Assembly (NCBI RefSeq): GCF_000154705.2
Contig: NZ_CM002917.1
Span: 3,421,853 to 3,485,852 of the forward strand
Direction: 5' to 3'
Source: Hoeflea phototrophica DFL-43
GTDB lineage: Bacteria > Pseudomonadota > Alphaproteobacteria > Rhizobiales > Rhizobiaceae
Length of the DNA: 64,000 nucleotides
The notes beneath the pieces were generated by a model. It made no database searches. It was not told the DNA's origin and saw only the letters and a list, made by a program, of their open reading frames with translations. Positions 37,367 through 40,628 of this stretch are shown piece by piece. A program made the translations under genes and the position numbers. Within the stretch, counting starts at the first letter, position 1. Every line of letters starts with the position of its first letter.

Positions 37367-38341
37367 ATGACCGCCCGCCACGTTCCCGTTCTCATCATCG
37401 GCTCCGGACCGGCCGGCTATACGGCCGCAATCTATGCCGCGCGCGCGCTGCTCAACCCTGTGCTGATCGCCGGCATGGAACAGGGCGGACAGCTGATGAT
37501 CACCACCGATGTGGAAAATTATCCAGGCTATGCCGATCCCGTGCAGGGTCCGTGGATGATGGAGCAGATGCTCAAGCAGGCTGAACATGTGGGGGCCGAG
37601 ATCGTCAATGATCTGGTCACCGAGGTCGAAATGACAAACCGTCCATTCACCATCAAGACGGATTCCGGCGCGGTGTGGACCTGCGATTCGCTGATCATCG
37701 CCACCGGCGCGCAGGCCAAGTGGCTCGGCATCCCCACCGAAAAGGACTTCATGGGCTTTGGCGTCTCCGCCTGCGCCACCTGTGATGGATTCTTCTACCG
37801 CGGCAAGAACGTCATTGTCGTCGGCGGCGGCAATTCCGCCGTTGAGGAGGCTCTCTATCTCTCCAATCTTGCAGCAAAGGTGACCGTGGTTCACCGCCGT
37901 GATGAATTCCGCGCCGAAAAGATCCTGCAGCAGCGGCTGTTCGACAAGGAAAACATCGAGGTGATCTGGGACACCGAAGTGATCGAATATCTCGGCGCGC
38001 CGGCGCAGCCGCCAATGCCCGCCTCGGTCAATGGCGTCAAGCTCAAGAACCGCAAGACCGGCGACATCACCGACATGGCCATTGACGGCGTATTCGTCGC
38101 GATCGGTCACGCCCCGGCGGTCAGCCTGTTCAAGGACAAGCTCAAGCACAAGCCGAACGGCTATCTCTGGACCGCGCCGGACTCGACGGCCACCGATGTG
38201 CCCGGGGTTTTTGCCGCTGGCGACGTGACCGACGACATCTACCGCCAGGCCGTGACCGCCGCAGGCATGGGCTGCATGGCGGCGCTGGAAGCCGAACGCT
38301 ACCTGGCCGGCGTGGTCCGGCATGCCGAGGCCGCCGAATAA
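37367..38341 (+). CDS. trxB: Thioredoxin-disulfide reductase
   Basis: 324 residues from the ATG at 37367; the longer frame upstream does not look like protein. The FAD motif GSGPAG is at 12-17, the redox-active CATC at 136-139 and the NADPH motif VVGGGNSAVEEA near 155. The C-terminal FAD motif is FAAGDVTD. It reduces thioredoxin with NADPH. lsrB follows 56 bp later on the same strand and may be co-transcribed. Confidence 0.97.
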   Translation: MTARHVPVLIIGSGPAGYTAAIYAARALLNPVLIAGMEQGGQLMITTDVENYPGYADPVQGPWMMEQMLKQAEHVGAEIVNDLVTEVEMTNRPFTIKTDSGAVWTCDSLIIATGAQAKWLGIPTEKDFMGFGVSACATCDGFFYRGKNVIVVGGGNSAVEEALYLSNLAAKVTVVHRRDEFRAEKILQQRLFDKENIEVIWDTEVIEYLGAPAQPPMPASVNGVKLKNRKTGDITDMAIDGVFVAIGHAPAVSLFKDKLKHKPNGYLWTAPDSTATDVPGVFAAGDVTDDIYRQAVTAAGMGCMAALEAERYLAGVVRHAEAAE

Positions 38342-38397: not shown

Positions 38398-39297
38398 ATG
38401 GTGCCGCTCGACTGGGATAAATTGCGCATTTTTCACGCGGCCGCGGAGGCCGGCTCGTTCACCCATGCGGCGGAGAAGCTGCATCTGTCACAGTCTGCGA
38501 TCAGCCGCCAGGTCTCGTCGCTGGAAATGGATATCGGCGCCAAACTGTTCCACCGCCATGCCCGCGGCCTGATCCTCTCCGAGCAGGGCGAGATCCTCTA
38601 CCAGACCGCTCATGAAGTGCTGATGAAGCTCGAAGCGGTGAAGAACCAGCTCACCGAGACACGCGAACGCCCCTCCGGCAAATTGCGGGTGACAACGACT
38701 GTCGGTCTTGGCCAGGCCTGGCTTACGGAAAAGGTCCAGGAGTTCCAGGCACTCTATCCCGATGTTCAGGTTCAGCTGTTGCTCGACAATGAAGAGCTTG
38801 ACGTCAACATGCGCCAGGCGGATTGCGCCATCAGGTTGCGCCAGCCCCAGCAGCCGGACCTGATCCAGCGCCGCATGTTCACGGTGCATTTCCACATTTA
38901 TGCCGCCCCCTCCTACCTTGCCCGTCATGGCGAACCCAAGACGCTGGAGGATCTGGACAACCACCGAATCATCACCTTCGGCGAGCCCGCACCCAACTAT
39001 CTGCGCGATGTGAACTGGCTCGAGCAGGCTGGACGCACACCCGACAACCCGCGAATCGCACAATTACAAGTGAACAACCTGCCGGCCATCAGGCGCGCCA
39101 CCATCAATGGTGCGGGCATTTCACTGCTGCCCGATTATATGATCAGCCGTGATCTGGCGCTGGTGCAGCTGGACATTCCTGCCGACATTCCATCCTTCGA
39201 TACCTATTTCTGCTATACGGAAGAGATGAAAAACGCTGCGAAACTCAAGGCCTTCCGGGATTTCCTGGTCTCAAAGGCGCGCAACTGGAACTTCTGA
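38398..39297 (+). CDS. lsrB: LysR-type regulator LsrB/VtlR
   Basis: 299 residues. The N-terminal winged HTH (LRIFHAAAEAGSFTHAAEKLHLSQSAISRQVSSLE) is followed by a periplasmic-binding-like effector domain. Its position behind trxB and ahead of an AbcR-like sRNA matches lsrB of Sinorhizobium and vtlR of Brucella/Agrobacterium (from memory). Those regulators control AbcR sRNAs, envelope genes and oxidative-stress response; redox-active cysteines are reported in LsrB. Cys143 and Cys272 are the only cysteines here. Confidence 0.88.
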   Translation: MVPLDWDKLRIFHAAAEAGSFTHAAEKLHLSQSAISRQVSSLEMDIGAKLFHRHARGLILSEQGEILYQTAHEVLMKLEAVKNQLTETRERPSGKLRVTTTVGLGQAWLTEKVQEFQALYPDVQVQLLLDNEELDVNMRQADCAIRLRQPQQPDLIQRRMFTVHFHIYAAPSYLARHGEPKTLEDLDNHRIITFGEPAPNYLRDVNWLEQAGRTPDNPRIAQLQVNNLPAIRRATINGAGISLLPDYMISRDLALVQLDIPADIPSFDTYFCYTEEMKNAAKLKAFRDFLVSKARNWNF

Positions 39298-39334
39298 TCG
39301 AAGGGCGGCGGCAGTGGCCCGCAGCACCCACCGC

Positions 39335-39370
39335 AAAAAAATACGGCAAACACAAGCTTGCTGTTTTTTT
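39335..39370 (+). terminator. Terminator of the trxB-lsrB transcript
   Basis: CGGCAA (39344-39349) and TTGCTG (39358-39363) pair, flanked by an A-run on the left and seven T on the right (39364-39370). It ends the regulator transcript about 70 nt after the lsrB stop and separates it from the sRNA. Confidence 0.6.
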
Positions 39371-39381
39371 AGGCAATAATA

Positions 39382-39406
39382 CAGCCATGCGTTAACAACA
39401 TGGCTG
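39382..39406. promoter_or_regulatory. LysR-type box upstream of the AbcR-like sRNA
   Basis: CAGCCATG (39382-39389) and CATGGCTG (39399-39406) are a perfect 8-bp inverted repeat with a 9-bp spacer. Its centre (39394) lies about 65 bp upstream of the predicted sRNA start, the classical LysR recognition position. No T-run follows, so it is not a terminator. Confidence 0.55.
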
Positions 39407-39423
39407 GCATGCGCTCTTCCCTC

Positions 39424-39452
39424 TTGCTGAATGCTCAATAAAGCACCATATC
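39424..39452 (+). promoter_or_regulatory. Promoter of the AbcR-like sRNA
   Basis: TTGCTG (39424-39429), 17 bp, CATATC (39447-39452). This predicts a start near 39459. Confidence 0.6.
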
Positions 39453-39458
39453 GACTAC

Positions 39459-39579
39459 AGCTGATGCACCTTTGGTGGCCTACTCCTCCCAGTGCCACCG
39501 CATGAGCTGTTCCCCTCTGGAGGTTTTTGACCTTCATACCTATTGGGCCCGAGAGAAATCTCGCGGCCCATTTTTTTTG
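39459..39579 (+). ncRNA. abcR: AbcR-like trans-acting sRNA (alpha-r15 family)
   Basis: About 120 nt with its own promoter and a strong terminator. Hairpin 1 (GGTGGC 39474-39479 / GCCACC 39494-39499) shows CTCCTCCCA (39483-39491) in its loop, an anti-Shine-Dalgarno motif typical of AbcR. A second C-rich single-stranded stretch is at 39511-39518. The terminator is TGGGCC...GGCCCA (39544-39570) with inner CGAGA/TCTCG and eight T. AbcR RNAs use Hfq to repress ABC-transporter and other mRNAs. Sinorhizobium and Agrobacterium carry two tandem copies; only one is seen here. Confidence 0.85.
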
Positions 39580-39707
39580 CAATCAGTTTTTGTGGTCACC
39601 CAGCCCGGAAAGCATGCAACACTCCGGCCCTGCTGCAGCTGTCATTCTCACAGCGGCTATGGCCACAGCGACACCGGCCACATGGCTCAAGGGACCACCT
39701 CGATCAC

Positions 39708-40628
39708 ATGACAGACCCCAAGCGAACGACCCTCATTCTCAATCAGAGCGGTGGCACCAGCCGCGGAATGAACAGCAAGCAGTTCGCTGAACTGGTTGCA
39801 AAGCGGCTTGAGGCCACCGGCGAGCAATGCACGGTCAAGCTGGTCTCCGGCGTGGACCTCATTGGCGCGCTCCAAGAGACGGCCGGCGACAAGACAACCG
39901 GGACAATCATAGCTGCCGGTGGAGATGGCACCGTTTCCGCGACCGCAGCCACCTGCTTTCGCGCCGGAAAGACATTGGGCGTGCTGCCGCTTGGCACCAT
40001 GAACTTGTTTGCCCGAAGCCTGCGCCTGCCATTGGATCCCATTGCCGCCGTGGAAGCGCTCACCACCGCGACGTCCCGCGACCTCGACATAGCCACGGCC
40101 AACGGGCGCCCCTTCATTCACCAGTACTCGGTCGGCCTGCATTCGAGGCTGGTCAAATTGCGGTCCGGGATGAACACATCAACCAGACTGCGCAAGCTTG
40201 CGTCGACGCTCGCGGCTCTGGGCAAGGTCGTTCTCGATCCACCGCGGTTTGATCTCGAACTCACCATCGACTCGCACACGCAGCGGCAGACCCTGTCCGC
40301 CATATCCGTGTCCAACAATGTGCTCACGGAACTGCCTGCACCCTATGCGGAGAGGCTTGATACCGGCGTGCTGGGCATTTCCTGCTCCGCTGCGCTCGGG
40401 ACTGCAAGCGTGATCCGCATGACCTTGGATGCAGCGCGCGGAAAGCTTGAAGACAACCCGAATGTCGATGTGCGAACGGAACCCAGGGTCACGCTCAAAT
40501 TCCCCTCACCTCCCAAAAGCCTCAAGGCGGCCATCGACGGGGAGATCGTTGCACTGGAGCGCGAAGTCGAGCTTATTCTGCATGCAGGAGCCCTGCGCAC
40601 ACTGGTTCCGGCGCCACAGCCCGCGTGA
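39708..40628 (+). CDS. Diacylglycerol kinase-type lipid kinase
   Basis: 306 residues from the ATG at 39708; the frame extends upstream into the sRNA terminator and that part is rejected. The catalytic motif AAGGDGTVSATA and the conserved LPLGTMNLFARSL place it in the DAGK/YegS family, which phosphorylates diacylglycerol or other lipids with ATP. No strong ribosome site is seen (AAGGGA is 15 nt away), so the start is less sure. It stands alone downstream of the sRNA. Confidence 0.87.
   Translation: MTDPKRTTLILNQSGGTSRGMNSKQFAELVAKRLEATGEQCTVKLVSGVDLIGALQETAGDKTTGTIIAAGGDGTVSATAATCFRAGKTLGVLPLGTMNLFARSLRLPLDPIAAVEALTTATSRDLDIATANGRPFIHQYSVGLHSRLVKLRSGMNTSTRLRKLASTLAALGKVVLDPPRFDLELTIDSHTQRQTLSAISVSNNVLTELPAPYAERLDTGVLGISCSAALGTASVIRMTLDAARGKLEDNPNVDVRTEPRVTLKFPSPPKSLKAAIDGEIVALEREVELILHAGALRTLVPAPQPA

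Follow-up and report, generated by a model that had tools for sequence, protein, structure and literature searches.

An AbcR1 (alpha-r15) small RNA adjoining lsrB in Hoeflea phototrophica DFL-43, with a proposed symmetric LsrB operator in its promoter

Analyses of a 64,000-nucleotide stretch of Hoeflea phototrophica DFL-43 (the window, to whose numbering plain coordinates refer), supported by comparisons with related loci, confirmed at the sequence level that 39459-39578 (+) is a complete and ordinary AbcR1 (alpha-r15) gene, a Hoeflea addition to a well-studied family of small RNAs. Very probably, this RNA is activated by LsrB, the product of the adjacent gene, via a dyad centred at position -65, and pairs with Shine-Dalgarno (SD) regions to lower translation. 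The observations made at the locus itself concern the RNA family, both pairing seeds, the architecture and conservation of the promoter, and the gene order.

The covariance model of Rfam family RF02345 (ar15, AbcR) matched 39459-39575 (+) over its full length (model positions 1-112 of 112) with 97.1 bits (cmscan; E 4.6e-19), against a gathering score of 40, so the check on the alpha-r15 model that the original prediction had proposed came out in its favor. This was the sole match above the gathering score in the window and the sole RF02345 match above the cut-off in the one-contig genome of 4,468,465 bases. The predicted start of abcR, 39459, is an A lying 7 nt past the -10 hexamer, and the predicted RNA of about 117 to 120 nt folds into three hairpins at -49.0 kcal/mol, compared with -29.6 ± 3.3 kcal/mol for shuffled sequences (z -5.8). 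Both the fold and the covariance alignment make the last hairpin (about 39544-39570) an intrinsic terminator, which with its eight T residues (39571-39578) spans 39544-39578 (+); this terminator and the resulting length had been anticipated, as had a hairpin with an exposed sequence. The sequence CTCCTCCCA is located at 39483-39491 (+), and in the predicted fold the loop takes in six of the eight CTCCTCCC bases, the other two lying inside a 3-bp helper stem. The seed aSD1 (CUCCUCCC; 39483-39490, +) occupies the loop of the first hairpin, and aSD2 (UUCCCCUC; 39510-39517, +) is unpaired between hairpins 1 and 2; both are identical in every base to the corresponding seeds of S. meliloti AbcR1 and AbcR2 (PMC8844928). 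Among the first copies at the best 80 of 260 lsrB relatives, the exact aSD1 occurs in 33 and TCCTCC in 74, while the presence of aSD2 in all 80 is circular because the search pattern included it. A 28.9-bit match directly behind an amtB-like gene (named by eye) was considered as a second, divergent AbcR of this genome and rejected, as it resembles the terminator of that gene. Also behind an amtB-like gene, at the terminator, is a below-threshold mmgR/suhB-like match (L002:1491-1565, -; 31 bits, cut-off 41).

The neighborhood is consistent with this assignment. The gene order is trxB, lsrB, abcR and then a gene for a diacylglycerol-kinase-domain protein, with trxB (37373-38341, +) encoding thioredoxin reductase (NCBIfam TIGR01292, 396.6 bits, cut-off 343) and lsrB/vtlR (38398-39297, +) encoding a LysR-type regulator of 299 aa with the Pfam domains HTH_1 and LysR_substrate; from the lsrB stop at 39297, the predicted abcR start is 161 nt further. 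Relatives of lsrB were collected by a genome-contig scan, and the best 80 of 260 were used. Within this set, LsrB is 91% identical to its counterparts at the nearest Hoeflea loci, the closest named ones; to those at the aligned Sinorhizobium, Agrobacterium and Martelella loci it is 76 to 78% identical (77 to 78% for Sinorhizobium and Agrobacterium). The same-genus genomes G121 and G124 share their abcR promoter sequences base for base with H. alexandrii (L003) and H. halophila (L007), in line with a Hoeflea host. An 18-nt AbcR core, detected by a sequence pattern rather than the covariance model, lies downstream of lsrB (flank of at most 3 kb) in all 80, in line with the predicted placing of an AbcR-like sRNA next to lsrB. 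The motif CATCDG, which we take to be the TrxB active-site motif, precedes lsrB on the same strand in all 77 loci, from the same best 80 of 260, whose upstream sequence exceeds 1.5 kb. LsrB of DFL-43 contains only two cysteines, C143 and C272, which are the pair conserved as C144 and C273 in A. tumefaciens LsrB; the latter protein has four, including C236 and C244, which DFL-43 LsrB lacks, and when each of the four was substituted singly only the change at C273 proved to impair function (PMC11975290). LsrB/VtlR of Brucella abortus likewise has two cysteines (PMC11975290). The LysR domains, the close orthology beside trxB and abcR and the conserved cysteine pair are all features of LsrB/VtlR.

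The promoter was compared across 81 sequences, i.e., the window and the best 80 of 260 lsrB relatives, which comprise 80 distinct promoters. The predicted arrangement TTGCTG-17-CATATC is present, with the -35 hexamer at 39424-39429 (+; -35 to -30), a 17-nt spacer and the -10 hexamer, read directly, at 39447-39452 (+; -12 to -7). TTG of the -35 hexamer occurs in 81 of 81 promoters, whereas CATA at -12 to -9 is constant by construction, the promoters having been aligned on the -10 motif. A sigma-70 consensus scan of 38800-40200 called no promoters and missed that of abcR. Within the spacer, GC at -26/-25 (39433-39434, +) co-occurs with the LsrB box, being found in 81/81 first copies but in only 10 of 39 box-less second copies (best 80 of 260 relatives), a count restricted to anchored copies and leaving out 11 that could not be anchored. 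Farther upstream, T at -71, C at -69, C/A at -60/-59, C at -55 and TGC at -49 to -47 are conserved in 100% of the 80 distinct promoters (best 80 of 260 relatives), G at -70 in 95%, and AG at -76/-75 in 89 to 91%, while positions -67 to -62 carry only 0.02 to 0.35 bits. Since T at -71 and A at -59 are invariant, the T-N11-A core of the LysR box spans -71 to -59 (39388-39400, +), and the invariant TGC belongs to CATGC (-51 to -47; 39408-39412, +), a further conserved half-site beside the dyad. A TGC half-site at -27, which would follow those at -71 and -49 at a distance of 22 bp, was rejected, as only GC at -26/-25 is constant; TGC at -27 occurs in 46 of the 81 promoters, and a 22-bp periodicity is therefore not claimed.

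Around the T-N11-A core lies an inverted repeat, CAGCCATG (39382-39389) and CATGGCTG (39399-39406) separated by 9 nt, with its center at 39394 (-65). The original prediction had described it as a perfect 8-bp repeat at about -65; this is true of the window, but what is conserved is a looser dyad, since all eight pairs are intact in 1 of the 81 promoters, namely, that of the window. When the 161-nt gap between lsrB and abcR was dinucleotide-shuffled 5000 times, 192 of the shuffles also contained a perfect 8-bp inverted repeat with a loop of 3 to 15 nt, and the window contains 46 such repeats. The repeat alone is thus weak evidence, and the dyad is credible because its center is conserved in relatives: across the 81 promoters, 67% of the eight pair positions pair when centered at -65, compared with 14 to 41% when the center is slid by 1 to 8 bp, and the corresponding values for 29 Hoeflea copies (the atypical copy of genome G130 being dropped) are 71% and 6 to 51%. 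From the most constant pairs we built the 25-bp consensus CAG-N3-TGC-N7-(G/A)CA-N3-CTG (39382-39406 in the window), which we propose, on this comparative evidence, as the LsrB operator. Its core, TGC-N7-(G/A)CA, is found in 75/81 promoters and 26/29 Hoeflea copies, and the full consensus, whose outer arms drift, in 46/81 and 5/29.

The published LsrB/VtlR box, GCAT-N3-TG-N3-T, which in S. meliloti lies at -61 to -49 (PMC8844928, PMC7486931), corresponds to the right half of this dyad plus the next bases. In the window, ACATGGCTGGCAT (39398-39410, +) matches it at exactly -61 to -49 with a single departure, A for the first G. A relaxed box, (G/A)CAT-N3-(T/A)G-N3-T, with both relaxations chosen after the sequences had been inspected, stands at a fixed distance from the -10 motif in 76 of the 81 promoters; the strict published form occurs anywhere upstream in 47. 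Genome-wide, the only exact match to the composite pattern TGC-N8-CATG-N-CTG-N-CATGC is the abcR promoter; no site matches with one mismatch, and 18 further sites match with two, compared with 4 in all for the reversed control. All but one (L152) of these 18 are contained in ORFs longer than 100 aa, a crude test because the abcR match itself overlaps a fortuitous ORF of 103 aa. With a second composite pattern, one site matched exactly and 29 matched with two mismatches, against 3 for the control; the sites at 1295420 and 2061380 were the ones examined further.

Even with a genuine AbcR, the palindrome at 39382-39406 might serve another regulator or be left over from a terminator of the neighboring transcription unit, as the 192 of 5000 shuffled gaps with a perfect 8-bp repeat and the likeness of the minus-strand palindrome to a terminator stem would allow. 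We consider this unlikely: the TGC/GCA half-sites and, more loosely, CAG/CTG are conserved at a near-constant distance from the -10 motif with no GC stem and T run, and the dyad overlaps the published box at its published coordinates, in S. meliloti part of an upstream region whose removal, with the predicted site, cut PabcR1 activity more than 22-fold (PMC8844928). It is very improbable that conservation of the LsrB box merely reflects shared descent of a syntenic stretch, with little functional meaning. All 81 promoters, from the window and the best 80 of 260 lsrB relatives, are indeed orthologous, but the half-sites are 95 to 100% conserved around the weakly conserved interval from -67 to -62, and a similar dyad recurs at nonorthologous places in the genus, upstream of a gene for 54 to 58 aa and a gene for 33 aa (described below). 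Scarcely any likelihood attaches to the idea that the single abcR is a degenerate or silent remnant whose function has passed to an ar14 (NfeR1-type) sRNA. The same genome does hold an ar14 member (G000:C1:2432365-2432491, 101.4 bits), and NfeR1 of S. meliloti carries anti-SD motifs and has a target in common with AbcR1/2 (PMC8844928); against this, the seeds, all hairpins, the promoter and the terminator of abcR are intact, and the RNA reaches 97.5% identity to copies from other Hoeflea genomes.

In the mechanism that we favor, LsrB from the adjacent gene would bind the dyad centered at -65 together with the further CATGC half-site, reaching -47, and from this classic LysR position would activate the sigma-70-type abcR promoter. 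The RNA of about 120 nt would then pair in trans through aSD1 and aSD2, probably with Hfq, with the SD regions of mRNAs that encode solute-binding proteins and related catabolic enzymes, whose translation would be lowered. That the AbcR RNAs of relatives are activated by VtlR/LsrB, as the original prediction stated, is published for S. meliloti and A. tumefaciens, in which activation of AbcR1 is direct (PMC8844928, PMC7486931), and by analogy LsrB dependence, a part for Hfq and repression may be expected to hold in DFL-43.

Candidate targets were sought in this genome as start codons following TGGGAGGA-N4-10, TGGGAGGA being complementary to aSD1 and the next base. Of 32 sites, 30 had loci that were analyzed and 25 had an ORF of at least 50 aa, taken to begin at the ATG of the pattern and not checked as a true gene start. 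Solute-binding proteins accounted for 10 of these 25 ORFs and transport genes, counting one ABC ATPase, for 11, compared with 3 and 4 of the 23 ORFs behind the control CAAGGAGA (41 sites, 30 with loci; one-sided Fisher test, p 0.036 and 0.046, respectively). A second control, AGGGAGGA (27 sites, 26 ORFs), also preceded many solute-binding proteins (7 or 8 of 26 by family tallies), so the first base appears irrelevant and a specificity for the base before GGGAGGA was dropped. The enrichment, a weak one, fits pairing through GGGAGGA; it would also fit a general GGGAGGA habit of these leaders.

The original prediction had also set the single copy apart from two tandem copies in relatives. The single copy stands, but the contrast was overstated: by the core pattern, one AbcR copy is present in 28 and two in 52 of the best 80 of 260 lsrB loci, with locus L018, which probably carries a degenerate second copy, counted as single. 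The relaxed LsrB box was found in only 2 of these 52 second copies, both from Hoeflea, and the other 50 are without it. Within the genus, AbcR was detected above the cut-off in 17 of 18 genomes, the eighteenth being 77% complete. Nine of the 17 carry one copy, four carry two, three carry three and one carries four (30 in total), although single-copy genome G131 is 75% complete, two-copy genome G130 is 9% contaminated with an atypical second copy, and the array in G127 runs to a contig end. A single copy is thus common in the genus, and its reading as a peculiarity of this strain was abandoned. The relaxed box stands at its fixed place in 28 of the 30 copies, the exceptions being that of G125 (GCAG for GCAT) and the atypical G130 copy. 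The extra Hoeflea copies therefore look like local repeats of AbcR plus operator, unlike the AbcR2 of other genera. In G123 (L130), four AbcR copies stand in tandem at spacings of 251 to 253 bp, every one with an LsrB box of its own, and copies 2 and 3 are 98% identical. On a 20-row lsrB tree built from 17 genus genomes (G130 counted as single) and three outside loci, five changes between one and several copies are needed, at least three of them forced by well-supported branches; as few changes sufficed in 131 of 500 label shuffles.

Several alpha-r15 copies per genome were stated for Rhizobiaceae and Brucellaceae in 2013 (PMC3712013), whereas the one-contig DFL-43 genome yields one match above the cut-off. 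We do not regard several copies as a valid defining feature, because 9 of the 17 AbcR-bearing Hoeflea genomes have one and Hoeflea is now placed under Rhizobiaceae. Presumably, Hoeflea may have stood outside that family in the 2013 classification.

Sites resembling the proposed operator also occur elsewhere in the genus. Used for searching, the 25-bp consensus is noisy, with 52 strand matches across 18 genus genomes and 24 for the reversed pattern; among the 17 AbcR-bearing genomes, it picked out the abcR promoter in 6. Elsewhere in this genome it matches at 1413924, which by our reading of the ORFs appears to be inside a longer threonine synthase gene, and at 3938269 and 4078219. It also led to a dyad at G000:C1:1295424-1295448 (L285:1525-1549), upstream of a 54-aa ORF (L285:1621-1785). 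In this genome and in G123 (L286), the dyad precedes an ORF of 54 to 58 aa between apparent urease genes (named from ORFs). Homologues of this small ORF are present in 12 of 18 Hoeflea genomes, and 10 of the 12 have the dyad upstream, compared with 3 of 73 control upstream regions, by a loose criterion set post hoc on related genomes (at least 3/5 core pairs, at least 7/9 pairs and one half-site) and with one AGGGAGGA ORF, L218, excluded from the controls. The two failing this criterion have 3/5 core pairs and 6/9 pairs. The dyad center lies 83 to 94 bp before the ATG in 9 of the 12 and 57 to 62 bp before it in G046, G130 and G000, where the script took a longer start. At the family level, a homologue is found in 9 of 151 genomes; none of the six homologue-bearing genomes outside Hoeflea satisfies the loose criterion, a partial right half or nothing being visible by eye. 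Among 48 database relatives, nearly all from Hoeflea, those with names are called hypothetical or uncharacterized protein, and a Pfam search of the small ORF gave no family above the cut-off. A third, less perfect dyad lies about 150 bp upstream of a 33-aa frame at about L287:1480-1504 (G000:C1:~2061380) and in G136 (L288); the L287 site was read by eye, the automatic pick having fallen elsewhere. This 33-aa reading frame is conserved and includes a membrane-like stretch.

These small-protein dyads recall the published VtlR regulon, in which VtlR of A. tumefaciens directly activates abcR1, the small-protein gene atu1667 and vrsA (PMC7486931). Somewhat short of an even chance, in our judgment, is the broader possibility that, in Hoeflea, a single 25-bp palindromic operator, only half of which is the published box, serves LsrB in controlling a compact regulon of AbcR and two undescribed small proteins (one of about 54 to 62 aa beside the urease genes, the other of 33 aa with the membrane-like stretch). 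The one to four AbcR copies, each with its operator, would then form a dosage array that replaces the AbcR1/AbcR2 split of Sinorhizobium and tunes AbcR output per LsrB activity. On this view, repeated gains or losses of copies in the course of Hoeflea evolution would point to such tuning; the presence of the full 25-bp consensus in only 5 of 29 Hoeflea copies weighs against this broader possibility as a whole.

Among known systems, the locus parallels AbcR1 of S. meliloti, with which it shares the adjacency to lsrB, two identical 8-nt anti-SD seeds, a sigma-70-type promoter, an LsrB-type box at -61 to -49 and a hairpin RNA of about 120 nt, here predicted (PMC8844928, PMC3712013). S. meliloti has, in addition to AbcR1, a tandem AbcR2 driven by RpoH1 (PMC8844928), whereas here there is one copy and the box begins with A. 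With A. tumefaciens it shares the order trxB, vtlR, abcR (PMC7486931). There, VtlR activates abcR1 and a small-protein gene, and in Hoeflea a similar dyad precedes two small-protein genes; A. tumefaciens also has AbcR2 (PMC7486931), whereas DFL-43 has a single AbcR. In Brucella abortus, likened here by published description rather than by comparison of loci, VtlR regulates one abcR gene and three small-protein genes, and the two AbcR copies are functionally redundant (PMC7486931).

A full-text literature search covering open-licence papers found none that deals with AbcR in Hoeflea. As far as the literature searches reach, what appears to be new, all of it proposed from comparative data, is the symmetric operator, the arrays of operator-bearing copies within the genus and the sites before small-protein genes. 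The LsrB/VtlR operator may be stated as a symmetric site with the core TGC-N7-(G/A)CA, of which the printed consensus that we found covers the right half. LsrB of DFL-43, having just the conserved cysteine pair, would permit tests of a redox role free of the second pair present in A. tumefaciens. For work on AbcR, single-copy Hoeflea genomes provide a setting that lacks a second AbcR copy, and congeners with two to four operator-bearing copies permit a test of why AbcR copies multiply.
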